From a virus: a stretch of 42,709 bases of DNA. How positions within the stretch are numbered: position 1 is the first letter of the stretch; each line of letters opens with the position of its first letter. The DNA is taken from IMG/VR virus record IMGVR_UViG_3300021433_000009, positions 1-42,709 of that record; one strand, 5' to 3'. Of the stretch, positions 3 to 41,864 are shown in pieces. The notes below the pieces were generated by a model. That model searched no databases and was not told where the DNA came from. It worked only from the letters and a program-made list of their open reading frames with translations. A program made the translations under genes and the position numbers.

Positions 3-629
3 ACCGCTGCCCAAGCTGCTGCGATGCCGGGGTATCAATTCCAGTTGCAGCAGGGAGAGAATGCCCTTCAGAATAGCGCGGCAGCCCGTGGTGGACTACT
101 AAGCACTGGTACCGCGAAATCGTTGGATCAGTATTCTCAGGGCCTCGCGTCAACCGACTATGGCAATCTCTTCAACCAAGCCCTCAGCGGTTACCAGACC
201 AATTTCAACACCTTCAACACTCAGCAGAACGAGGCATACAACCGTCTTGCGGGCGTGTCGCAACTTGGTGCCTCCTCGGCTGCTGGACTCAACAATGTTC
301 AACAGGCGGGAACAAATGCCCTCGCCAACTCCATCCAAGGCACCGCTCAGCAACAGGGTCAATATTATGTCGGTGCGGGTAACGCTCAGGCTGCTGGGAC
401 CGTTGGCTCAACCAATGCCCTTGTGGGCGGGTTGACTGGCCTAGGTCAGGCGGGGGCGGGGATATCTAATATCCTCGGTGCTCAGAATGCCAGCAGTGGT
501 CAGACATCAGGCACCTTTAATGTAGGTAACCCTTATGCAGGTAACGGTGGGGCCACTAACTTTATAGGCAGTATGGGAACTAATCCAGGTTACACAAATC
601 CCGGTAACGACCTTGTAGGAGCATTCTAA
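3..629 (+). CDS. DNA-transfer/ejection-type virion protein, 3' part
   Basis: The reading frame is open from base 3, so the gene starts before the window; the ATG at 24 is internal. The piece is rich in Gln, Asn, Ala and Gly. Near its start is the block QLQQGENALQNSAAARGGLL, followed by SLDQYSQGLAS and DYGNLFNQALSGYQ, a conserved signature of podovirus proteins usually called DNA transfer protein or p32-like. These are minor virion proteins thought to help move DNA into the cell. The gene at 42503-42709 at the right edge looks like the N-terminus of the same protein. It ends in TAATG with the next gene. The family assignment is from recalled motif similarity only. Confidence 0.7.
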   Translation, partial: TAAQAAAMPGYQFQLQQGENALQNSAAARGGLLSTGTAKSLDQYSQGLASTDYGNLFNQALSGYQTNFNTFNTQQNEAYNRLAGVSQLGASSAAGLNNVQQAGTNALANSIQGTAQQQGQYYVGAGNAQAAGTVGSTNALVGGLTGLGQAGAGISNILGAQNASSGQTSGTFNVGNPYAGNGGATNFIGSMGTNPGYTNPGNDLVGAF

Positions 630-3891: not shown

Positions 3892-3961
3892 GAGCTTTAA
3901 CTCGACGCTCAATGTACCAATCCACAAAGCATATGAGAATGAGTGCCCCCCACCAGGTCAT
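3842..3961 (-). CDS. Small membrane protein, 39 aa
   Basis: The product begins MTWWGALILICFVDWYIERR and ends in a Pro/Ala-rich tail. One hydrophobic segment (residues 3-16) is followed by basic residues, so a single-pass protein with N-out/C-in topology is likely. The start is in an ATGA overlap with the stop of the 57-aa gene, with GGGGGAACGGGC before the ATG. It runs 50 bases into the end of the convergent plus-strand gene. Last gene of the four-gene antisense cassette. Function unknown. Confidence 0.5.
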   Translation of the reverse strand: MTWWGALILICFVDWYIERRVKALTAPPSASPNARCPEA

Positions 3962-4131
3962 GCCCGTTCCCCCGCAAGGTACCGTGTCTGCCAAGAATCA
4001 ACATACCGCGCGAGGTCATCAACTGGGACTCGCTCCCAGTCGCGTACGAACTCCTGCCACAGCGCAGCGCGTGCCTCACTCGTTTCACGAATACGGTCGG
4101 CAATCCTCACTGGCCTATCCAAGAATTTCAT
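3958..4131 (-). CDS. Small soluble protein, 57 aa
   Basis: Starts MKFLDRPVRIADRI and is charged and helical (RETSEARAALWQEF, VDDLARYVDSWQ). The ATG at 4131 is chosen because AAGGAG lies 7 bases upstream; the in-frame ATG at 4137 would be only one base from it. It overlaps the upstream 36-aa gene by 17 bases and the downstream 39-aa gene by ATGA. No family recognised. The amino-acid pattern is clearly protein-like compared with the opposite strand. Confidence 0.6.
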   Translation of the reverse strand: MKFLDRPVRIADRIRETSEARAALWQEFVRDWERVPVDDLARYVDSWQTRYLAGERA

Positions 4132-4225
4132 CGTCATTCTCCTTAACTCGTGGTGCGTTGACCACAAATATCATCCACCCCAGAAAGCACAACACCGTTG
4201 ATATCCAAATGACCAAACTAGCCAT
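4115..4225 (-). CDS. Small membrane protein, 36 aa
   Basis: MASLVIWISTVLCFLGWMIF forms one transmembrane helix, followed by a short polar tail ending NDDEILG. A near-perfect Shine-Dalgarno (GGAGGAAACA before ATG) sets the start. It overlaps the preceding 44-aa gene by 8 bases in another frame. Too short for a family call; holin-like, spanin-like or superinfection-exclusion roles are all possible. Confidence 0.6.
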   Translation of the reverse strand: MASLVIWISTVLCFLGWMIFVVNAPRVKENDDEILG

Positions 4226-4352
4226 TGTTTCCTCCAGGACGCACGCAGGCGTCCCAAACCTTGTCATCCATCGCTTGGGTGCGGTTCTTGTGCCATCCCC
4301 AGTATACCGCTTGCCCTGCAACCACCACCGCGTAAAGGAGTGTAATTAGCAT
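4218..4352 (-). CDS. Small membrane protein, 44 aa, leaderless candidate
   Basis: MLITLLYAVVVAGQAVYWGW is a membrane segment; the rest is soluble and ends CVRPGGNNG. Its ATG and the plus-strand ATG of the 4351 gene share the bases CATG, so the two genes diverge from a 2-base overlap. There is no good Shine-Dalgarno. Instead a -10 box (GAAAAT) ends 6 bases before the ATG, which would give an mRNA beginning at or near the start codon. First gene of the antisense cassette. Confidence 0.5.
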   Translation of the reverse strand: MLITLLYAVVVAGQAVYWGWHKNRTQAMDDKVWDACVRPGGNNG

Positions 4353-5592
4353 GAAGACATTTTCCAATACCCTTCGCTTTCTGGCAATGGTACTTTTAGC
4401 CTACCTCACCCTTGGTGTCCAAACGGTTAAGGCCCAGGTCCAGCTTCCCCCCTTGGTGAAAGGCCAATGGTTTGACCCTAACGGTCGTCCCCTCGCCAAT
4501 GGCTGCATCTTCACCTACATTAGTGGCACCAACACCCCCCAAGCTACCTTTACCGACTTCACGGGTACCACTCCCAACCCTAACCCAATCATCCTTGACG
4601 GCTCAGGCCGTCCCCCACTTGGCACCGATATCTGGCTAGGCGCAGGCTCATACCGTCTAAAACTCGTTTCCCAAGGTGGTACAAACTGCTCCACTGGCGT
4701 ACAAATCTTTGTCGAAGACGGCATCACCACCGCCTTTGGAACCATTCTCGCTTCCAACAACACCTGGACCGGCACCAACACCTTCAACGGCCCCACGATC
4801 TTTAATGGCGCTGTGACCATGAACGTCGGTTTCACCAGCAACGGCCCTTCCAACCTCACAGCGGGCGGGTCCTTGGTTGGCACCTTCTCAGGCTCCCCCA
4901 ACTTCAGTGGCACTCCAACCTTTGCCAATGGCATCATCGTAGACAACACTGCTACCTTTAACGGTCAAATCGTTAGTACCGTCACCACCGGAACAGCCCC
5001 GATTACCGTTGCTTCCACTACGGTTGTTCCTAACCTTAACGTTAGTCTCCTAGTCGGCTGTGTATGGGCCTCACCCTGTCCCATAGGCATCACCACTCCC
5101 AATATTGGCGTATTCACTGCCCTGACCGCAACCTCTGTATTCAGCTTGAACGGTGGCACTAATCAAACCGCCACCCAAGGCACCGACACCAGCCTCCTCA
5201 CCTCAGGCACCATCAGCGGAGGGGCGGGCACTGGATTGTGCTTGGATGCCAACCACGGCGCGACAACCGTAGGGTGTGCCACCTCAGGATTTACCAAAAT
5301 CGAGGGTATGAGCTTTTGTCCAGTCGGCTGTACCGTCACCGGCACCCCATGCACCACCGGGGGCACTGGCAACGCCACCTGTGTCAACGCCATCACATGG
5401 CCTACACCTTTCGCGGACTCCAACTATGCCTTGGTCTGCACAGGCTTAGGTGTGGCAGCAGGCTTCCCCTTCATCCCCTACACCTCATCCAAATCTTCCA
5501 CCGGAGTAGTGGTCACCACATCCAACGGTGAAAACGCAGCAGCAACCGCGTCGGCCCTTAGCGAAATCGACTGCACAGGTGTGCATCCTTAA
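4351..5592 (+). CDS. Tail-fibre-like protein with Sec signal peptide, 413 aa
   Basis: Residues 1-28 are a classic Sec signal: basic MKTF start, hydrophobic core FLAMVLLAYLTLGV and a cleavage site TVKA before QVQ. Directly after comes a phage tail-fibre/tailspike N-terminal module: GQWFDPNGRPLANG, YISGTNTPQATFTD, NPIILDGSGRP and GSYRLKLV. In other phages this module attaches a fibre to the virion. Repetitive Asn/Thr/Gly/Ser-rich sequence follows, with a C-terminal Cys-containing domain (CPVGCTVTGTPCTTGGTGNA). AAAGGAG lies 10 bases before the ATG. A signal peptide on a virion fibre is odd. It may be exported from the infected cell rather than, or as well as, built into particles. It shares the VSTxxTGTAPxxVASTT module with the next gene. 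Confidence 0.7.
   Translation: MKTFSNTLRFLAMVLLAYLTLGVQTVKAQVQLPPLVKGQWFDPNGRPLANGCIFTYISGTNTPQATFTDFTGTTPNPNPIILDGSGRPPLGTDIWLGAGSYRLKLVSQGGTNCSTGVQIFVEDGITTAFGTILASNNTWTGTNTFNGPTIFNGAVTMNVGFTSNGPSNLTAGGSLVGTFSGSPNFSGTPTFANGIIVDNTATFNGQIVSTVTTGTAPITVASTTVVPNLNVSLLVGCVWASPCPIGITTPNIGVFTALTATSVFSLNGGTNQTATQGTDTSLLTSGTISGGAGTGLCLDANHGATTVGCATSGFTKIEGMSFCPVGCTVTGTPCTTGGTGNATCVNAITWPTPFADSNYALVCTGLGVAAGFPFIPYTSSKSSTGVVVTTSNGENAAATASALSEIDCTGVHP
4359..4387 (-). promoter_or_regulatory. Leftward promoter of the antisense cassette (TTGCCA-N17-GAAAAT)
   Basis: On the minus strand TTGCCA (4387-4382) is followed by exactly 17 bases and GAAAAT (4364-4359). The -10 region reads GGTATTGGAAAAT, close to GGATATCGGAAAAT at the promoters at 22023 and 25409. 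The promoter lies inside the signal-peptide codons of the divergent 4351 gene. Confidence 0.6.
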
Positions 5593-5601
5593 AGGAAACT
5601 T

Positions 5602-7950
5602 ATGAAAATCACTATCAAGGCCCTGTTAATTATCTTGGCCATGTTCATCACCCCCCTCGCGTGGGGGCAGGATAATGTCTATTACCCCCAGGTTTACAAT
5701 AATGGTGGACAAATCACAGCTTCAGTCGCCTCCACTGGCGCTTGCCCCCCAGGTTCATGTATCGGCATCACCATCCCCACCACTGTGACTACCATCACTG
5801 TTGGTGTTCTTGGAACCTTTAGCGCCACCCTCCAGCCCGAGGAGTCCCAAAACGGCGGCTACACCTGGACCTCTGCCGGGACAGCCATCACCACTCCCGG
5901 TACCACCGTCTACACCGTCACCGCATTTACTAACTTCAGGGTTCGCGCCTCCGCATATGTGTCGGGTGTGGCCAATGTCAACATTCAAGCTGGCCCTACG
6001 GGTGGCAACGGTAGCGCGACCGCTGGTGTTACCAGCCTCAACGGCCTAGTTGGAGCCGTTACCCTTGCTGCTGGATCGGGTGTTACCATCACCCCCTCCG
6101 GCAATACCCTAACCATTGCCTCAACGGGTGGAGGAGGTAGCACCCCCGCTGGACCTTTAAACGCCATTCAATTCAATAACCCCATTGGTACCTTTGACGG
6201 AGTAGCAGCCTTTACTTTTGCCCCCAGCACCGACTCTTTCACCAAAACCGGCCTCGTTACCAGCTTCGACTCCATCACCGCAGGCCCCACAAATGCCAAT
6301 GGCTTACAAATTGACGGCTCAGCGGGCGGGTCCGTGGTTCTTTTTGCCAGTGAATCAACCTCAACACTTCTTCTCGAATCCGACAGCGGTATCATAATGG
6401 AATCAACCACAGGAGGGTTGGTTTTAGGTAATTCTGTGGGAGGTGCATCGTTCCCGATACAAATTTTTGCCCTAACCTCTGGATCAACCACCTTAACAGT
6501 CCCCGCCACAGATACCGAAGAGTTGGATATTGGCAAAGTTGGTGGAGGCAATGCGAAGTTAGGACTTTTAGGCACCACCAGCGGTACTTTCCAAATTTCC
6601 ACCAATGCCACAGCTTCTCAACTAAACTTTGGGTCTAATGCCAATGTCACTAGCGCAGGTGCTCTCACCGTCACCAGTTGCACGGGATGCGGTTCAAGCT
6701 CAGGAACGGTTACAAGTGTTAGTTTCACAGGTGGACTTATTTCCGTCGCCACACCCACAACCACCCCAGCTCTCACCGTCGCAGGCACTTCAGGAGGCAT
6801 CCCCTATTTCTCAGGTGCGGCAACATGGGCCAGTTCAGCAGCAGGTACGGTCAATACGTTGATGAAGTGGGGCGGCGCGGGCAATCCACCGATAGCCTCT
6901 AGCGTGACGGACAACGGAACGACGGTGAGCACGGGGGAGCAAATCGTCTCAACTCTCGCCACTGGCACAGCACCATTCTCCGTCGCCAGCACTACCAACG
7001 TCGCCAACCTCAACGCCTCTAGCCTCAATGGCGCAACTTTCGCTGCACCAGGAGCTATCGGGGGCACGACGCCGGGGAGTGGGGCATTCACTACTCTTAC
7101 GAGTAGCAGCACCGACACATTCAGCGGCGCGGGCGCGGCCTCCACAGCTTCAGTGTTGTTGAATGGAACCTTATTCAGTGGTGGAAGTGGGACGACTACT
7201 TTCCCTTATCTATTACTCCAGCCTTCAGGAACTAGCGCGGTCACGACATGGGCGACGGCTGGGACCATGCTCGGTATCAATGCGCCGACCAGCATCGGAA
7301 ACTTGGTTAACTTTGCCGTAAACGGTTCATCCATCTTTAACATCGGCCCCACCGGCTCGATAAACATGTCGGGTGTCCTGACTTCCAACTCCAACGTCAT
7401 CGCAGGGGTCGCTAGCTTCTTTCAACTCAACGGGCGGGCAAAGCTCAGTTCCCCGGCTGACAGCATTTTCTTGATGCAAAATAACGCGGCCAGCGCATTT
7501 AACCGCCTCGACTTCGGCGGTACAACGTCCAGCTTTCCAGCACTGCAAGTGAGCGGCGCGAATCTACAAGTAGAGTTAGCAGACGGTTCAGGGTTGACAG
7601 GGCTTAGCGCCTCGAATCTCACATCCAATACCTACTCCACAGGAACCAATTGCTCCAGTTCCGCATCTCCAGCCGTTTGCGCCGCCGCCGCAGGGGGCAG
7701 CGTTGTCATCGCAGCGGGTGCCACATCCGTTGTAGTAGACACAACCGCCGTAACCGCTAATAGTCAAATTCTCGTCACCGAAGATTCATCCCTTGGGACC
7801 AAATTAACCGTTACTTGCAATACCCAATCTGATCTAGTCGTTGGTTCCCCCACAATAACCGCACGAACTGGGGGGACAAGTTTTACGATCAGCCTACCCG
7901 TGGCTCCAACCACGAACCCGGTATGCCTATCGTATCTGGTGCTTAATTGA
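5602..7950 (+). CDS. Large repetitive tail-fibre-like protein with Sec signal peptide, 782 aa
   Basis: MKITIKALLIILAMFITPLA with predicted cleavage before QDNVYY is a Sec signal. The body is Thr/Ser/Gly/Asn-rich, predicted beta. It includes the fibre motif VTSLNGLVGAVTLAAGSGVT, several GGTTPGSGAFTTLT-like segments and a C-terminal domain ending FTISLPVAPTTNPVCLSYLV. That ending looks like a natural C-terminus, so the TGA at 7948 is probably a true stop. Nine bases separate it from the previous fibre gene. A role in receptor or surface binding is likely from family context; whether it is in the virion or secreted is unknown. Confidence 0.7.
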   Translation: MKITIKALLIILAMFITPLAWGQDNVYYPQVYNNGGQITASVASTGACPPGSCIGITIPTTVTTITVGVLGTFSATLQPEESQNGGYTWTSAGTAITTPGTTVYTVTAFTNFRVRASAYVSGVANVNIQAGPTGGNGSATAGVTSLNGLVGAVTLAAGSGVTITPSGNTLTIASTGGGGSTPAGPLNAIQFNNPIGTFDGVAAFTFAPSTDSFTKTGLVTSFDSITAGPTNANGLQIDGSAGGSVVLFASESTSTLLLESDSGIIMESTTGGLVLGNSVGGASFPIQIFALTSGSTTLTVPATDTEELDIGKVGGGNAKLGLLGTTSGTFQISTNATASQLNFGSNANVTSAGALTVTSCTGCGSSSGTVTSVSFTGGLISVATPTTTPALTVAGTSGGIPYFSGAATWASSAAGTVNTLMKWGGAGNPPIASSVTDNGTTVSTGEQIVSTLATGTAPFSVASTTNVANLNASSLNGATFAAPGAIGGTTPGSGAFTTLTSSSTDTFSGAGAASTASVLLNGTLFSGGSGTTTFPYLLLQPSGTSAVTTWATAGTMLGINAPTSIGNLVNFAVNGSSIFNIGPTGSINMSGVLTSNSNVIAGVASFFQLNGRAKLSSPADSIFLMQNNAASAFNRLDFGGTTSSFPALQVSGANLQVELADGSGLTGLSASNLTSNTYSTGTNCSSSASPAVCAAAAGGSVVIAAGATSVVVDTTAVTANSQILVTEDSSLGTKLTVTCNTQSDLVVGSPTITARTGGTSFTISLPVAPTTNPVCLSYLVLN

Positions 7951-8539
7951 AGACTCCAACGGCGATGTCCTCGTTGCCGATGGTGATTCGATCACAGAAG
8001 GATTTCAAAATGGCGGGCCAGTGTCGCCTTACACCGCACATCTTACCCTTACAGGGCGTTGGGATATTATCAACGTAGCGATTCCAGGAGCCACAGTAGT
8101 ATCCATGCTGCAAACTGCACCAACAAATGTGGATTCATCATTTTTTCCTGGTGTGACCAATATTGTAGTAGCTTGGGGTGGGACTAATGACATCGCAAAC
8201 AACAACGCCACCCCCTCAACGACCTATGCAAATCTCACATCTTACATAGCCGCACGGCATGCAAAAGGTTGGAAGGTAATTGTCCCCACAATGATTTCCC
8301 GTGAAGGATTCGACACGCAAAAGAATACCTACAACGCACTCATTCTAGCGAACTCTGCGGGCGCAGATGCAATTGTGAATTTCACTGGAACACAGTTAGG
8401 TTGTGACGGTTGTTGGTCTAATTCATCCTTCCAATCTGATGGTGTCCACCCAACCCAAGCAGCAATTAACACTATAGAAGCCCCAGTAATCGGGGCAGTA
8501 ATAAACGCGCTCCCCGCCGTGGTAGCAGGAATTCAATAA
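7946..8539 (+). CDS. SGNH/GDSL hydrolase with non-canonical start
   Basis: The SGNH blocks are present in order: GDSITEG (nucleophile Ser, codons from 7982), then GGTNDI (block III Asn), then DGVHP (Asp-His dyad). Members are esterases or deacetylases that remove acetyl groups from surface sugars, often beside or fused to fibres. The first ATG/GTG/TTG in frame is GTG 8021, which lies after the catalytic Ser. The frame is open back to 7859 with no usual start codon. Best explanation: an ATT start at 7946, overlapping the TGA of the upstream gene (ATTGA) and read by termination-reinitiation. Alternatives are a programmed or accidental frameshift fusing it to the 782-aa fibre, or a G6-run indel at 7870. 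The hydrolase call is secure; the start is not. Confidence 0.75.
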   Translation: MEDSNGDVLVADGDSITEGFQNGGPVSPYTAHLTLTGRWDIINVAIPGATVVSMLQTAPTNVDSSFFPGVTNIVVAWGGTNDIANNNATPSTTYANLTSYIAARHAKGWKVIVPTMISREGFDTQKNTYNALILANSAGADAIVNFTGTQLGCDGCWSNSSFQSDGVHPTQAAINTIEAPVIGAVINALPAVVAGIQ

Positions 8540-8549
8540 GGGACCCCTA

Positions 8550-8888
8550 ATGTCTGAAGATAATTCTTACGAAATCCTAATCCGCCTAGACCAACGAGTA
8601 GAAGACTTACATACATCACTTATTGGTCCCAATGGCCGTATCCCGAAAGTTGAGGAAACGGTTGAGGAACACTCCGCACAAATTCATCAATGGACAGGTT
8701 CCTTGAAACTAGGAACATGGGTAGTAGGAGCTATTCTAACCCTATTTGGCGGGGTCCTCGTCTCCCACATATTCCATGAATCTAACCAGCATAATGTGAT
8801 CTACGCGCCAACACCTGCTCAGGGTACAGCGGATTCGCACCACCGTTCCAATACAATAACCCTCGAACCAAGTCACCCCCAGCCATAG
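8550..8888 (+). CDS. Small membrane protein, XhlA-like holin candidate, 112 aa
   Basis: The N-terminal 50 residues are charged and coiled-coil-like (ILIRLDQRVEDLHTSLIG, KVEETVEEHSAQIHQW). One transmembrane segment follows, about residues 53-73 (LGTWVVGAILTLFGGVLVSH), then a polar tail. This layout resembles haemolysin XhlA-type accessory lysis proteins and small holins. AGGGA lies 8 bases before the ATG. The last 107 bases overlap the convergent endolysin gene. The role in lysis is inferred from topology and the neighbouring endolysin. Confidence 0.6.
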   Translation: MSEDNSYEILIRLDQRVEDLHTSLIGPNGRIPKVEETVEEHSAQIHQWTGSLKLGTWVVGAILTLFGGVLVSHIFHESNQHNVIYAPTPAQGTADSHHRSNTITLEPSHPQP

Positions 8889-9225
8889 CCAACTTCTTCT
8901 TCAACACCTGACACCCCACCGTTAAGCCCTGCTCGGGGTCGCACAAGGATGATAGGAATGGCCTATCATACCCCTGTTCTCTCGCCACTTGCCCCATCGT
9001 TTGCATCAAACCCCACGAGAAGGACCTCGCATAGGCTTCGCTTGTGCTGATTTTGTTATTGGTGTACAAAGGGGCCACATACTTAGACATAAACGCAGGC
9101 TCGTAGCGCATGGCCCACGGGTTCCACATCGACTCCTGCTCGCACACGGCGCACACTAGCACAGGATCAAGACCCGCCCCGGTTGCTATCTTACTCGCTA
9201 AGGTTACTAGTTCGCTTTGCATCAT
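8782..9225 (-). CDS. Lytic transglycosylase-type endolysin (SLT-like), 147 aa
   Basis: A goose-lysozyme/SLT fold enzyme that cuts peptidoglycan glycan strands. Visible motifs: catalytic Glu in the ES pair (Glu31-Ser32 in VCEQESMWNP), SWGLMQTMG, and LLYWNGG followed by YPEQVLARR. There is no signal peptide, so it would need a holin or similar for release. The start overlaps the preceding 47-aa gene by ATGA. It is the last gene of the long minus block, and its 3' end lies antisense to the putative holin gene. Confidence 0.85.
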   Translation of the reverse strand: MMQSELVTLASKIATGAGLDPVLVCAVCEQESMWNPWAMRYEPAFMSKYVAPLYTNNKISTSEAYARSFSWGLMQTMGQVAREQGYDRPFLSSLCDPEQGLTVGCQVLKKKLAMAGGDLVRGLLYWNGGANPLYPEQVLARRSHYAG

Positions 9226-31513: not shown

Positions 31514-31840
31514 ATGGCAAAATCAGTCAGTCCAGCGACACAGGGGTATAGTGCAGGAAAAGTAGGGGGTATGACTTCCAATCCTGCTCCTGGAAAGCCT
31601 GTGTTCAAGCAGATGACCCTTTCGCGCCAGGGGAATGATATCAAGGCCACACATCACTTCGTGGACCCGATGCATGATAATGAGCATTACATCTTTGGCG
31701 AAGGCGAACAGAAGGGCTTGATGAACCACATTGGCAAGCACCTGGGATTCACCAAGATGACTGGTAAGAAGAACGCCCCTGAATCACCTGAGGACCAGAA
31801 TGCTTCAGCAGTAAATAACGCGGCAGAGGGAGAGAAGTAA
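31514..31840 (+). CDS. Hypothetical protein, 108 aa
   Basis: ATG 31514 is preferred: AAGGAG is 7 bases upstream, while the ATG at 31508 is too close. Polar, with a basic Gly/Lys-rich N-terminus and KATHHFVDPMHDNEHYIFGE. Ends in TAATG. No family recognised. Confidence 0.6.
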   Translation: MAKSVSPATQGYSAGKVGGMTSNPAPGKPVFKQMTLSRQGNDIKATHHFVDPMHDNEHYIFGEGEQKGLMNHIGKHLGFTKMTGKKNAPESPEDQNASAVNNAAEGEK

Positions 31841-32211
31841 TGTCAAAGTGGCAGATTGCAGGACTCATTGCGTTGTTGGCGCTTGTGGTGGTTGCAGCGT
31901 TTGGACAGGACAAGCCAAAGGTGGAGTTAAAGCCTGAGGTTAAGCTGACATTGGTAAGTGACCAGAACGACATGTATAAGCTGGCCCTCCAGATGAAGCA
32001 ACTGGAGACTCAGTACCAGCAAGGTCAGGCCGCGATGGCTAAACTTCAGGCCAAGTTGGCTGAGGATACGAAGTCTGCGCTTGCCAAGTCGGGGATTGAT
32101 ACGGCGAAGTATGAAATCAATGTCGAGACGTTTGATGTAACGCCTAAAGTAGTTGTAAAGGACGCCCCTCATGCCTTGGACACGCCAGCAAGTCAAGTAT
32201 CTTCTCAGTAG
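31840..32211 (+). CDS. Membrane-anchored or exported coiled-coil protein, 123 aa
   Basis: MSKWQIAGLIALLALVVVAA is a signal peptide or anchor, with a possible cleavage before QDKPK. Residues 50-80 (MYKLALQMKQLETQYQQGQA) are a coiled coil. This Rz-like layout (N-terminal anchor, periplasmic coiled coil) would suit an inner-membrane spanin, but no lipoprotein partner is seen nearby. The last 41 bases overlap the next gene. Confidence 0.55.
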   Translation: MSKWQIAGLIALLALVVVAAFGQDKPKVELKPEVKLTLVSDQNDMYKLALQMKQLETQYQQGQAAMAKLQAKLAEDTKSALAKSGIDTAKYEINVETFDVTPKVVVKDAPHALDTPASQVSSQ

Positions 32212-35958: not shown

Positions 35959-37197
35959 ATGGCTAACCAATTTGTCTTTACAAATTGGGTCTCTATGGAG
36001 GCCCTTCGCCTCCTTATCAACAAACTTGAAGTGGCTCAGTTTTTCAACACTGAATACAACAAGGAATTTGATAAGGAGTTCCCGGTTGGCGCAACAGTGC
36101 AGGTCAAGTTGCCCCAACGGTTCCTGATTCGCAACGGCCTCGGGTATACCCCACAGCCGATTAACCGCTTGGCGGTCACCGTTAATTGCAACCTGATTAA
36201 AGGCGTTGACTTCGAGTGGGATTCGATTGAAAAGGCCCTCGAAATGGAACGGTCGAAGGAAGAAATCTCTAAGCAATACATCGAGCCAGCGGTTGCTCAG
36301 ATTGCTCAGCAGATTGACTCCGACGCCGCACTGTTTGCATACCAGAATGCCAACAACATTGTTGGTATTCTTGGTGTGGACCCCAACACCACCACAACGT
36401 TCATGCAAGCCCGTCAGCGATTGATCGAACTTGCGTGTCCTCCGAGTGGTGAAAAGGGTGTTTTGGTGCCCCCGGCGGTTAACACTGCCCTCGTGCCAGC
36501 CCTCCAGACGTTGTTCAACCCCTCCAGCGACATCTCGCGGCAATACAAGCAAGGGTCGATTGGAAAGTTGAACGGCTTCGACTGGTATGAGTCCATGTCG
36601 CTTCACCGTCACACAGCGGGAACGGTTGCTGGTGCCTTCACGGTTGCGGTTAACGTCGTGTCCGGCTCCAACACCATTACCGTCAACCTGACGGCGGGTG
36701 ACACCCTGAACGTCGGTGATGTGATTAGCATCGCTGCCGTCAACCAGGTCAACCCGATGACCCGCGAAGTGCTCACGACCGTGCTGAAGCAGTTCGTTAT
36801 CCTTCAGCCCTTGGTAGCAGTTGGCGGTGGTGTTGACGTAATCAGCGTGAGTCCGACGATCTATGGTCCTGGGTCGCAATACCAGAACGTAGACGTCCTC
36901 CCACTTGCTGGTGCGGTTATCACCCTATTCCCCGGCACGGCTGCGCCTAACGGCAAGTCCAGTGCTCAGGGCCTCGTGCTCCACCCGGACGCCTTCGCAA
37001 TGGTCGGCGTCAAGTTGGAAATCCCCAAGGCAGTGGAAATTGCCAGCCAAACCCGCGACCCGGAGACGGGAATCGCAATCCGCTTCATTCGCGCCTTCGA
37101 TCCAGTTCAGTCGCGCATGATTAACCGTTGGGACGTGTTGTACGGCTTCGGTGGTCTGTACCCAGACAACTGCGCCGTTCGCGTTCTGTGCGCCTAA
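35959..37197 (+). CDS. Major capsid protein, P22 gp5-type, 412 aa
   Basis: Starts MANQFVFTNWVSMEALRLLI; VGATVQVKLPQRFLIRNGLG and the C-terminal IAIRFIRAFDPVQSRMINRW with DVLYGFGGLYPDN are P22 coat-family blocks (HK97-type fold). An inserted domain rich in Val/Thr (FTVAVNVVSGSNTITVNLTA) corresponds to the I-domain region. Length is close to the 430-residue P22 coat. CAGGTAGCC precedes the ATG. Confidence 0.9.
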   Translation: MANQFVFTNWVSMEALRLLINKLEVAQFFNTEYNKEFDKEFPVGATVQVKLPQRFLIRNGLGYTPQPINRLAVTVNCNLIKGVDFEWDSIEKALEMERSKEEISKQYIEPAVAQIAQQIDSDAALFAYQNANNIVGILGVDPNTTTTFMQARQRLIELACPPSGEKGVLVPPAVNTALVPALQTLFNPSSDISRQYKQGSIGKLNGFDWYESMSLHRHTAGTVAGAFTVAVNVVSGSNTITVNLTAGDTLNVGDVISIAAVNQVNPMTREVLTTVLKQFVILQPLVAVGGGVDVISVSPTIYGPGSQYQNVDVLPLAGAVITLFPGTAAPNGKSSAQGLVLHPDAFAMVGVKLEIPKAVEIASQTRDPETGIAIRFIRAFDPVQSRMINRWDVLYGFGGLYPDNCAVRVLCA

Positions 37198-37208
37198 GGA
37201 AAATGACC

Positions 37209-38027
37209 ATGAACATCAAGAACACCAAAGCGGTTCTCTTTCTCGTGTTGGCTCTCCTGCTGCCTTCCTTTGCGTCGGCTCAGGTCGGGACCAACCTCAC
37301 ATCAACCACCCTCAGCGCGACGATTGGAGCAGGTGTGCAGTCCTTCCAATTGGCCAGCGTGACGGGTATCAGTGGCTTTGGTCCGGGAATCAACTCCCCG
37401 ACCGGAGGCACGACTGCGAACGGAAACATCACCGACCTGTACATTGACCGGGAATTGTTTCAAGTAATCTCGGTTAACGTCACAGCTAAAACAGTGGTAG
37501 TCCTTCGCGGTCAGGGCGGGTCACAGGCGGCAGCGCACGCATCGGGCGCTAACGTCATCATCGGCACCCCCTCTGCGTTCATTGATTATGATCCGGAAGG
37601 ATACTGTGCAACGATTACCGGCCCTGCCGTGAATCAGTTGTTCAACACTCCCCCGGTTTATAATCCTTGGATCAATCAGCGAACGAGTAATCAGTGGATT
37701 TGCTCCACAGTCACGAACACTTGGGTTCCAGGTCTTGGAAATCCGGGTGTGTCAGGTACGCCTGTGGGACTTACCACTTTGGTTGCTTCGGCTGCAACCC
37801 TTGTACCCAGTGGCCAGCGTTTCCATGTCAGCGGAACGACGGCTATCGTTAACATATCGGCACCGTATGGAAATACTGGTCAGGTGACCCTTATTTTTGA
37901 CGGCGTTGATACGTGGACGGCGGCGGGGAATATCTCCATCGCAGGTACGAATACCACTGCGGGTACGTCTGTTACCTTCACTTGGGACTCTAGCACGTCG
38001 AAGTGGGTTCCGAATAGGGTGGCCTAA
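37209..38027 (+). CDS. Exported head-region protein (decoration-like), 272 aa
   Basis: ATG 37209 has AAGGA 8 bases upstream; an ATG at 37203 is too close. MNIKNTKAVLFLVLALLLPS with FASA cleavage before QVGTN is a clear Sec signal. The mature part is beta-rich, with ITDLYIDRELFQVISVNV, VVLRGQGGSQAAAHASGANV and a C-terminal GQVTLIFDGVDTWTAAGNIS, resembling decoration or fibre domains. A signal peptide directly behind the coat gene is unexpected for a virion part. Confidence 0.65.
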   Translation: MNIKNTKAVLFLVLALLLPSFASAQVGTNLTSTTLSATIGAGVQSFQLASVTGISGFGPGINSPTGGTTANGNITDLYIDRELFQVISVNVTAKTVVVLRGQGGSQAAAHASGANVIIGTPSAFIDYDPEGYCATITGPAVNQLFNTPPVYNPWINQRTSNQWICSTVTNTWVPGLGNPGVSGTPVGLTTLVASAATLVPSGQRFHVSGTTAIVNISAPYGNTGQVTLIFDGVDTWTAAGNISIAGTNTTAGTSVTFTWDSSTSKWVPNRVA

Positions 38028-39707: not shown

Positions 39708-41864
39708 ATGCCACGATTCGGATTAGTTGGACCTTCATATACCTCGCAATCCCTCAACGCCGATGCCCAACTCTGCATGAATTGGTACGTGGAGCAAATT
39801 GAGTCAGGTGCGGGAAATGCGCCTGTGGCGATGTATCCAACCCCTGGCACCGTTACCTTTGTAAACCTCGCACGCACCATCAGCCCCACGGTTGATGGGA
39901 TTGGAAGTTTCGTTGCTAGTGTTGCAGCGAAAGGGACAGTTACAGGGACAGGACATATTAGCACCGGTTCCCTCACCCCTTCCACTCCTCCAGAGTTTGC
40001 AGTCTTTGGTGAGGCGAATGATGGAGGGGTGCCCTTCACCGTTGACGCGGGGTGGACAACCTTCGGGGGGCAGAGTTATCAACAGGAGGCGAATGCGGCG
40101 ATTGCGGGGGGTGGAACACTTAGCAGCGTGGGGTCATCGGACTGGGTAGCGGCGTTGATGTTGTTTAATCAGGTGGGCGCAACAGCCCCCACGGTTATTC
40201 AGCAACGTACTATCAATTCAGGCGCATGGGCAGCAAGCACACAGTCACAGCCCTTCCTTGCTCCTGTGACGGCTGGGAACACCATAATGGTGATCCTGGA
40301 GGCGAATGAGACAGCGGCGGCGGGTCCAGGTCTAACAGTCACAGACTCGGCGGGGAATGTTTATACCCTGATTGCGAGTGAGATATTTGGCTCTAACTCT
40401 ACCCCAGCGTATCAGGTTTATCTGTCCCAACATGTCCTTGGAGGCACGATTACCATCAATGGCACCACTACCGCCACAGTCATCGGGGCAAGCCTGAGGG
40501 CGTATGAGATTCAGGGTGGGTCAGTAGGTAGCACAAACAATGGCCCCACCCGTGGATGCATCACCATCACAGGGCGTACATTTTTTGTGGTTGGGCCGGA
40601 TTTTGATGAGGTGCTGTCGAATGGTACATTTATCAACTGGGGCACAGTGGCGAATGATTCCCTCCCGGTGACGATGGCTGCAACGCCTCAACAACTCCTT
40701 CTTGCATCTGCTGGCACGGCGTATGTGTTTGACTTGATGGCTAATACCCTGACACCCATTGCGGGCGCGACCTTTAGCGGCCCTGTGTCTCAGGCAGCGG
40801 TTTGTGATGATTTCTTCATCCTCACCATCAAGAACAGCAAGACTTTCTATGTCTCGGCCCCCCTCGATGCAACCGATTGGGTAACGAATGGCTCGGCAAT
40901 CGTGTCAGTATTTCCAGACAATATCGTGTCCATGATCGTTGACCACAGACAGGTATGGTTCTTTAGTGACACCAAGTCGGTGGTGTATTACGACTCGGGG
41001 AACATCTTCCCCTTCGATGTGATTCCCGGATCATTTATGGAAGCCGGTAACGCGGCAGAGTTTTCTACCCAACTATTCCCTAATGGGGTCGTGTGGCTGG
41101 GGGCAGATGAGCGTGGGTCAGGCGTTGTATGGCTAGGTCCTCCGGGTGGTGGGACGCCTCAGCGAATAAGCAATCATGCCCTTGAGTTTGCCATTCAGGG
41201 TTACACCAGGGTTGACGACGCCGTAGCCATCACCTATCAGGACCAAGGACACCTTTTCTATCAAATCTACTTCCCCACCCCCTCCGTCACCTGGACCTAC
41301 GATGTCAATACCCAAATGTGGCACCAGCGAGGGTTTTACCTTGAATCCATTGGCAATTTTCAAGCGGTTCATTACTGGAATCACACCTTTAACTTTGGTA
41401 GACACCTTGTGGGGGATTGGCAATCGGGTAGGGTGTATCAACTTCATATCCCCGTCTACACCGCTGGCGTGTGGACCTTCGCAACCGATGACGGGAATCC
41501 AATCGTTCGTGTTCGTCGCGCTCCCCATGTCAGCAGCGAGCAAAAACGCCAGTTCCATGCTGAACTTCAGGTTTATATGGAAACAGGTGTAGGCCCTCAG
41601 CCCCCGTTACTTGATGCCTCGGGTAATCCTCGTGGTCCCTTGATGGACATGCGATTCTCTGACGACGGCGCACATACATGGTCGAATTACCAGACCCGCG
41701 ATTGTGGCCAAACAGGGAACTTCAGGACTCGTGTGAGGTGGTTGAGGTTGGGGAGGTCAAGGGACAGGGTGTATGAGATTCGTGTTAGTGATCCGATTGG
41801 TTATCGTATCGTTGATGCGTATCTTCGCTTCGCTCCAGGCGAGGATTTGGAAGGGAGTCGCTAA
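39708..41864 (+). CDS. P22 gp10-type tail hub with inserted beta module, 718 aa
   Basis: Begins MPRFGLVGPSYTSQSLNADA and CMNWYVEQIESGAGNAPVAM, the start of P22 gp10-like DNA-stabilisation/tail hub proteins. The hub resumes at about residue 285 (GCITITGRTFFVVGPDFDEV) and continues with WLGADERGSGVVWLG and DMRFSDDGAHTWSNYQ. Between about 60 and 285 lies an extra module with GSLTPSTPPEFAVFGE and TVTDSAGNVYTLIASEIFG, a beta-sandwich type I associate with surface proteins. ATG follows the previous TAA directly. Confidence 0.85.
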   Translation: MPRFGLVGPSYTSQSLNADAQLCMNWYVEQIESGAGNAPVAMYPTPGTVTFVNLARTISPTVDGIGSFVASVAAKGTVTGTGHISTGSLTPSTPPEFAVFGEANDGGVPFTVDAGWTTFGGQSYQQEANAAIAGGGTLSSVGSSDWVAALMLFNQVGATAPTVIQQRTINSGAWAASTQSQPFLAPVTAGNTIMVILEANETAAAGPGLTVTDSAGNVYTLIASEIFGSNSTPAYQVYLSQHVLGGTITINGTTTATVIGASLRAYEIQGGSVGSTNNGPTRGCITITGRTFFVVGPDFDEVLSNGTFINWGTVANDSLPVTMAATPQQLLLASAGTAYVFDLMANTLTPIAGATFSGPVSQAAVCDDFFILTIKNSKTFYVSAPLDATDWVTNGSAIVSVFPDNIVSMIVDHRQVWFFSDTKSVVYYDSGNIFPFDVIPGSFMEAGNAAEFSTQLFPNGVVWLGADERGSGVVWLGPPGGGTPQRISNHALEFAIQGYTRVDDAVAITYQDQGHLFYQIYFPTPSVTWTYDVNTQMWHQRGFYLESIGNFQAVHYWNHTFNFGRHLVGDWQSGRVYQLHIPVYTAGVWTFATDDGNPIVRVRRAPHVSSEQKRQFHAELQVYMETGVGPQPPLLDASGNPRGPLMDMRFSDDGAHTWSNYQTRDCGQTGNFRTRVRWLRLGRSRDRVYEIRVSDPIGYRIVDAYLRFAPGEDLEGSR

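Follow-up and report, generated by a model that had tools for sequence, protein, structure and literature searches.

Predicted Sec export of spike and fibre proteins in a group of P22-like soil phages

Introduction

Tailed phages, in the textbook view, are assembled wholly within the cytoplasm. The window analysed here, a complete virus record of 42.7 kb (IMG/VR record IMGVR_UViG_3300021433_000009, 42,709 nt), raises the question whether this always holds; two adjacent fibre-like genes, here called A and B, appear to encode Sec signal peptides followed by glutamine, and a third gene, D, was found to do the same. An initial annotation of the window had concluded that export of A and B would either place them on the surface of the infected cell (as decoys, for adhesion, or to block superinfection) or betray an unusual mode of assembly. 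The comparative sequence analysis described below suggests that in this phage group outer virion proteins are probably exported by Sec, cleaved, oxidised in the periplasm and mounted on the tails during lysis.

Signal peptides of genes A, B and D

Signal peptides were scored with a self-written program which evaluates the n-, h- and c-regions and the AXA motif, and whose cleavage-site rule favours Gln; it recovers OmpA, MalE, PhoA, LamB, DsbA, PelB and Bla. The predicted signals of A (MKTFSNTLRFLAMVLLAYLTLGVQTVKA, cleaved before QVQL) and of B (MKITIKALLIILAMFITPLAWG, cleaved before QDNV) score like known E. coli signals. When the first 48 residues were shuffled, the observed score was matched in 17 of 5000 cases for A, 8 of 5000 for B and 0 of 5000 for D. 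With a ribosome binding site required, 25 of 210 proteins of at least 200 aa passed the scorer in eleven phages of the window's kind, versus 1 of 201 in ten related control phages, the single passing protein having a real-looking leader of the lipoprotein type. The leaders of A, B and D thus scored do not appear to be chance hydrophobic sequence. That both A and B begin with a Sec signal and have Gln at position +1, as annotated initially, agrees with the open reading frame (ORF) coordinates, the ribosome binding sites, the scorer and the shuffles. An internal start downstream of the leader of A (TTG or GTG in LPPLV) was considered and rejected, there being no ribosome binding site at that position.

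Gene A as a variant of the P22-type tailspike

Residues 29–126 of A match the N-termini of spike proteins in 31 phage records, many of which also match the capsid protein of the window at about 30% identity. A hidden Markov model (HMM) comparison of this domain with the tailspike head-binding domain of PDB 7eeq gave an E value of 3e-17, and sequence homology is detectable to 9vyg as well. The AlphaFold2 model of the domain (predicted local distance difference test score, pLDDT, 86) retrieved the tail spike domains of Pan3, Pam1, P22 and Sf6 in Foldseek, with E values from 4e-6 to 1e-3; the fold is common to all of these head-binding domains (PDB 1lkt, 8tvr, 7sg7, 7eeq, 9vyg). Pfam, searched with the whole of A and with the domain, gave no match. 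The attachment module proposed in the initial annotation to follow the signal of A is borne out by homologues, HMM and structure matches alike.

The position of the gene points in the same direction. The window represents a P22-like podovirus in which A, like B, lies 3' of the ejection genes and 5' of the lysis genes. Xanthomonas phage PBR31, Rhodoferax phage P26218, Thalassomonas phage BA3, Pseudomonas phage PAE2 and Vibrio phage 1.211 have a capsid protein about 30% identical, a homologous spike domain and a matching order of late genes; in PBR31 the order is the same as in the window (portal, scaffold, major capsid protein, tail tubes, acetyltransferase, internal proteins, spike, lysis), with the annotated tail spike at the place of A. 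By domain and gene position A appears to be a P22-type tailspike, albeit a variant one: the domain ordinarily forms the N-terminus of a cytoplasmic protein, and the spikes of PBR31, P26218, PAE2 and 1.211 begin, as MAxx..., at the domain itself, whereas in A a leader is fused to it. Compared to its cytoplasmic, leaderless P22-type relatives, A adds a cleavable Sec signal and a pair of cysteines. The cysteine-containing C-terminal domain of A is common to L012, L038 and L004 only. In L012 (positions 3908–6131) leader plus head-binding domain occurs in three tandem copies, of which two are truncated (153 aa), followed by a full spike gene.

Two classes of head-binding domain

Among viral contigs and phages, 92 ORFs with the domain were collected; 84 begin at the domain and have no leader, and the remaining 8, on 6 contigs including the window, have a leader joined at the domain edge. 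In cultured phages the spike protein begins MAVQIAPLPVMRFYDNNNNPL... without a leader. All 8 leader-bearing ORFs contain a cysteine in the motif GGC(I/V)FTY, which corresponds to Cys24 of mature A. In the reverse direction, IMG/VR was searched by the Cys24 motif alone, a leader not being demanded. This yielded 43 stretches (several from identical phages, so that independent cases number roughly 30); a leader was found by the program in 40 and by inspection in L095, while the other 2 run off the contig end, so that all 41 readable stretches have one. The cysteine at the first site is present in 34 of 34 domains with a signal peptide versus 0 of 77 without, and the second cysteine, in GG(T/V)NC, in 33 of 34, the exception, L038, having CTGC instead. 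Cys24 is not a requirement for the exported class, as L137, L249 and L250, which are Acidobacteriota copies, have a leader but not this residue.

The predicted cleavage of the exported class recreates the N-terminus at which the cytoplasmic relatives start, and the conserved residues of the domain are the same in both. In 25 records, one of which has three copies in tandem, the domain type with signal peptide is the only one present, beside a P22-like capsid gene, which indicates that these phages do not encode an additional, cytoplasmic spike of the kind.

Leader and disulfide cysteines are coupled in both directions of search, a result that hydrophobic sequence arising by chance could not account for. 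The notion that they are an annotation artefact, with the true starts lying downstream, is further at odds with the ribosome binding sites found at the leaders, with the dozens of independent leaders ending at the same domain edge and with the score of the control genes; it is the least credible of the explanations weighed.

Gene D

Gene D, which like the Rz-like protein encoded from position 31840 had not been noticed in the initial annotation as carrying a leader, follows the same pattern as the spike domain, as far as its homologues indicate. Its N-terminal domain is conserved, and its C-terminal part varies. Of 27 distinct homologues, 23 have a leader, which was recognised by the program in 13 and by reading further upstream in 10; the other 4 lack one and come from a second capsid lineage, in which the spikes are exported but D is not. 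The cleavage site of D aligns with Met1 of the form without leader, and the mature proteins have 2, 4, 6 or 8 cysteines in all 23 exported forms versus 1, 1, 1 and 2 in the leaderless ones. A fold search with D was based on a weak model (pLDDT 63); many of the matches were phage tail or capsid proteins.

Cysteine parity and the residue after the cleavage site

Even numbers of cysteines are expected in a protein that is oxidised outside the cytoplasm, since all of them should then be paired. From 55 non-redundant leader-bearing proteins, the 39 with a mature length of at least 200 aa and any cysteine were considered. The count is even in 37 of the 39 (p ~1e-9, an optimistic value that indicates no more than the order of magnitude, because homologues are not independent and the cleavage rule favours Gln), as compared to 55 of 144 signal-less proteins from the same genomes and 68 of 148 in the controls (Fisher 5e-11). 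The parity, like the cysteine pair linked to the signal peptide, is indirect evidence that the leader-bearing proteins fold in an oxidising compartment.

Gln occupies position +1 in 31 of the 39 large exported proteins. This is reminiscent of the Q-rule of Bacteroidetes, in which Gln stands at +1 after cleavage by signal peptidase I (PMC5837995, PMC10653852). Among the predicted signals of two Acidobacteriota genomes (L209–L218, L229–L238) 24 of 70 have Gln at this position, and among those of two Burkholderiales genomes 4 of 28, both being small samples; Gln at +1 in about a third of the Acidobacteriota signals suggests a partial Q-rule outside the Bacteroidetes. It is conceivable that the leaders are not cleaved at all and merely tether nascent fibres at the inner membrane, the protein itself staying cytoplasmic; hydrophobic leaders would indeed bind the membrane, but the AXA sites with their +1 Gln, the even parity and the cysteine pair linked to the signal peptide indicate cleavage and an oxidising compartment, making such a tether very improbable.

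Genome-wide, leaders were found on D, on the spikes, on further large proteins resembling fibres, the longest of 1428 aa, and on a few small proteins; the portal, capsid, tail tube and ejection genes have none. Several related phages have 2–4 large exported fibres.

Distribution, hosts and history of the exported class

The closest cellular match is a P22-like prophage on a scaffold of Acidicapsa dinghuensis (Acidobacteriota; L135/L205, about 645–668 kb), which has the leader, the cysteine pair and a capsid gene 46% identical. The phages in question are a soil group with at least one member residing as a prophage in an acidobacterium, and the host of the window is linked to this phylum through relatives only. 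Cultured podoviruses of Acidobacteriota are available in Tunturi_1 and Tunturi_2 (PP887698, PP885685; PMC11924767), in which a repeat of gene B recurs with 62% identity. Tunturi_2 also shares Sec signals and even numbers of cysteines on four large late proteins, gp12, gp13, gp14 and gp17, with 20, 10, 20 and 34 cysteines, respectively; the predicted mature N-termini are QTTGAPLNLNVP for gp13, QTAAYPNG for gp12 and QTCTQTF for gp17, and gp14 has a pectate-lyase-like match. The small gp16 has a leader, too, and one cysteine. Both isolates differ from the window in their 63-kb genomes, and in Tunturi_2 the N-terminus of the major head protein is unlike the window's. The paper describing the isolates does not mention signal peptides. 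Two further phages of Tunturiibacter, Tunturi_3 and Tunturi_4, were checked for signals and have none, which rules out a demand of the host as the sole cause of export.

In a tree of the capsid proteins the exported class occurs in three places, and a single capsid lineage was rejected by the approximately unbiased (AU) test (p 0.0002); in a tree of the domain, which has few columns and little resolution, a single origin was not rejected (p 0.42). Taken together, the two trees make it likely that the exported spike was transferred between capsid lineages. A strict restriction to Acidobacteriota is not upheld: one domain from a genome assigned to the Acidobacteriota group (G247) has no signal, and L258 (genome G824, Pseudomonadota group) has one. 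The latter encodes a divergent protein of the head-binding type with a leader and a cysteine in PGCKLYV, possibly an independent case outside the Acidobacteriota.

A second assembly compartment?

Filamentous phages are tailless and are assembled at the membrane during extrusion, without lysis. Export of virion proteins as cleaved Sec pre-proteins is known from this group, an example being g3p of M13 (PMC8310372), and in this respect the proteins described here resemble those of M13; the window, however, represents a lytic tailed phage whose capsid and core would be cytoplasmic. Phages of P. gingivalis are reported to encode Q-rule signal proteins of unassigned role, for which modification of the envelope of the host has been proposed (PMC10367356). 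They share with A, B and D the Gln at +1 after signal peptidase I and the fact that phage genes follow a rule of the host, but here spikes that carry a virion-attachment domain are among the proteins in question, and the hosts to which the phages are linked belong to the Acidobacteriota. Sec-exported tail fibres were not reported in the literature searched, most subscription papers and preprints being outside its reach.

Assembly may be pictured as follows. A, B and D would be made as Sec pre-proteins and cut by signal peptidase I before Gln, which would probably cyclise to pyroglutamate; the cleavage would restore exactly the N-terminus that these domains have in their cytoplasmic relatives. 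The proteins would then fold in the periplasm, with all cysteines pairing, and the signal-less head, portal, tail hub and ejection proteins would be assembled in the cytoplasm as usual. Breach of the inner membrane at lysis would bring cytoplasmic particles and periplasmic spikes together, whereupon the head-binding domain would dock the disulfide-hardened spike onto the tail. Late docking is plausible since P22 spikes can be added in vitro to spike-less particles. The sequences give good support to Sec export and to disulfides, by way of the signal peptides, the identity of the domain, the cysteine signature, the lack of a second copy type and the synteny; that the proteins are actually exported and cleaved is inferred from these, their presence in the virion from domain conservation and synteny, and docking at lysis is a proposal. 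For this proposal in its full form, in which a widespread group of soil phages has its exported proteins oxidised, capped with pyroglutamate and docked on spike-less particles only at lysis, so completing the virion outside the cytoplasm, the balance of the evidence tips slightly in favour.

Might the exported fibres instead be surface or secreted proteins of the infected cell, which block receptors, exclude superinfecting phages, degrade biofilm or matrix, or act as decoys? Export itself is well founded and most known phage export proteins are of such a type, e.g., the Q-rule proteins of the P. gingivalis phages (PMC10367356). However, a protein for superinfection exclusion or a decoy should have no virion-attachment domain, whereas here the domain is conserved and is the only copy in the genome; with a surface or decoy role alone it would be left without use, although its conserved residues are kept, and the phage would lack a spike of that type. 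D, with its matches to tail proteins, behaves alike. A role restricted to the cell surface is therefore unlikely. Export, on which both outcomes considered in the initial annotation depend, is strongly supported by the direct fusions of signal peptide and domain in dozens of homologues, the cysteine pair linked to the signal, the parity and the +1 Gln; of the two outcomes, unusual assembly would fit better than a decoy, adhesion or superinfection block, because the attachment domain is conserved, is the only copy of its type, lies at the tailspike locus and regains its normal N-terminus upon cleavage.

A dual role, in which the spikes coat the cell or clear its surroundings prior to lysis, are then loaded on virions and are possibly exchanged among phages released together, would be in keeping with the exported pool outside the cytoplasm which the signals imply, with the 2–4 large exported fibres of several related phages and with the pectate-lyase-like stretch in one member from Tunturi_2; crossing of the outer membrane before lysis is unsupported, though, and this variant is considered rather doubtful.

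Several points weigh against periplasmic maturation followed by docking at lysis. Apart from the optimistic parity value, the signal predictor is home-made, and it is assumed that trimers form in the periplasm and that the spikes persist long enough at lysis to dock. Further, Tunturi_3 shares its host strain with Tunturi_2 and has no signals, so the biology of the host does not demand export; G247 and L258 likewise break the association with Acidobacteriota, in opposite directions.

Sequences from dozens of phages nevertheless point to one group in which the outermost proteins are exported ahead of assembly. Should this be so, it would constitute a second assembly compartment, undescribed before for tailed phages, it would explain how disulfide-bonded spikes can be made, it would imply a final assembly step at lysis, and it would let spikes have a role prior to lysis or be exchanged among phages. 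Many receptor-binding proteins of soil phages are at present annotated as "hypothetical", and a signal peptide together with even cysteines would be an easy test by which to recognise them; a cultured phage-host pair for testing exists in Tunturi_2 and Tunturiibacter psychrotolerans X5P2.

Features of the window

The features are compiled in Table 1; portal and terminase are encoded as well.

Table 1. Location of the genes, predicted signals and neighbouring features in the window
Feature	Position	Strand	Basis or remark
DNA-ejection protein, no signal	24..629	+	phrog_598 E 3e-14
Ribosome binding site of gene A, AAAGGAG	4334..4340	+	sequence; 10 nt 5' of ATG
Gene A, putative exported tail spike/fibre, 413 aa, 12 cysteines	4351..5592	+	same gene position as orf034 (tail spike) in PBR31
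Sec signal peptide of gene A, cleavage TVKA-QVQL	4351..4434	+	predicted by scorer
Head-binding domain of gene A, P22 tailspike type, residues 1–98 of mature protein	4435..4728	+	HMM, AlphaFold2, Foldseek, phage homologues
Cys24 of mature A domain (NGCIFTY), linked to signal-peptide class	4504..4506	+	
Cys85 of mature A domain (TNCSTG), putative partner of Cys24	4687..4689	+	co-occurrence
Ribosome binding site of gene B, AAAGGA	5591..5596	+	sequence; 5 nt 5' of ATG
Gene B, putative exported fibre-like protein, 782 aa, 8 cysteines	5602..7950	+	repeats common to Tunturi_1, Tunturi_2
Sec signal peptide of gene B, cleavage LAWG-QDNV	5602..5667	+	predicted by scorer
GDSL esterase domain	7949..8539	+	Pfam PF13472, E 1e-14
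SLT-type lysozyme, no leader	8782..9225	-	
Rz-like spanin	31840..32211	+	phrog_739 E 2e-4
P22-like major capsid protein, no signal	35959..37197	+	phrog_283 E 1e-60
Gene D, putative exported virion/tail-protein-like, directly 3' of major capsid gene	37203..38027	+	PHROG tail protein matches
Sec signal peptide of gene D, cleavage SASA-QVGT	37203..37280	+	predicted; start may instead be the second ATG, at 37209
Head closure/tail tube protein, no signal	39708..41864	+	phrog_578 E 8e-86

The leader of the Rz-like spanin, which is expected for such a protein, ends AAFG before QD and has Gln at +1. The lysozyme gene is convergent with the late genes. The GDSL esterase domain has no ATG, GTG or TTG 5' of its GDSIT block and lies in frame +1 relative to gene B, overlapping the stop codon of the latter; candidate explanations are a frameshift extension of B, a rare ATT start or an indel.

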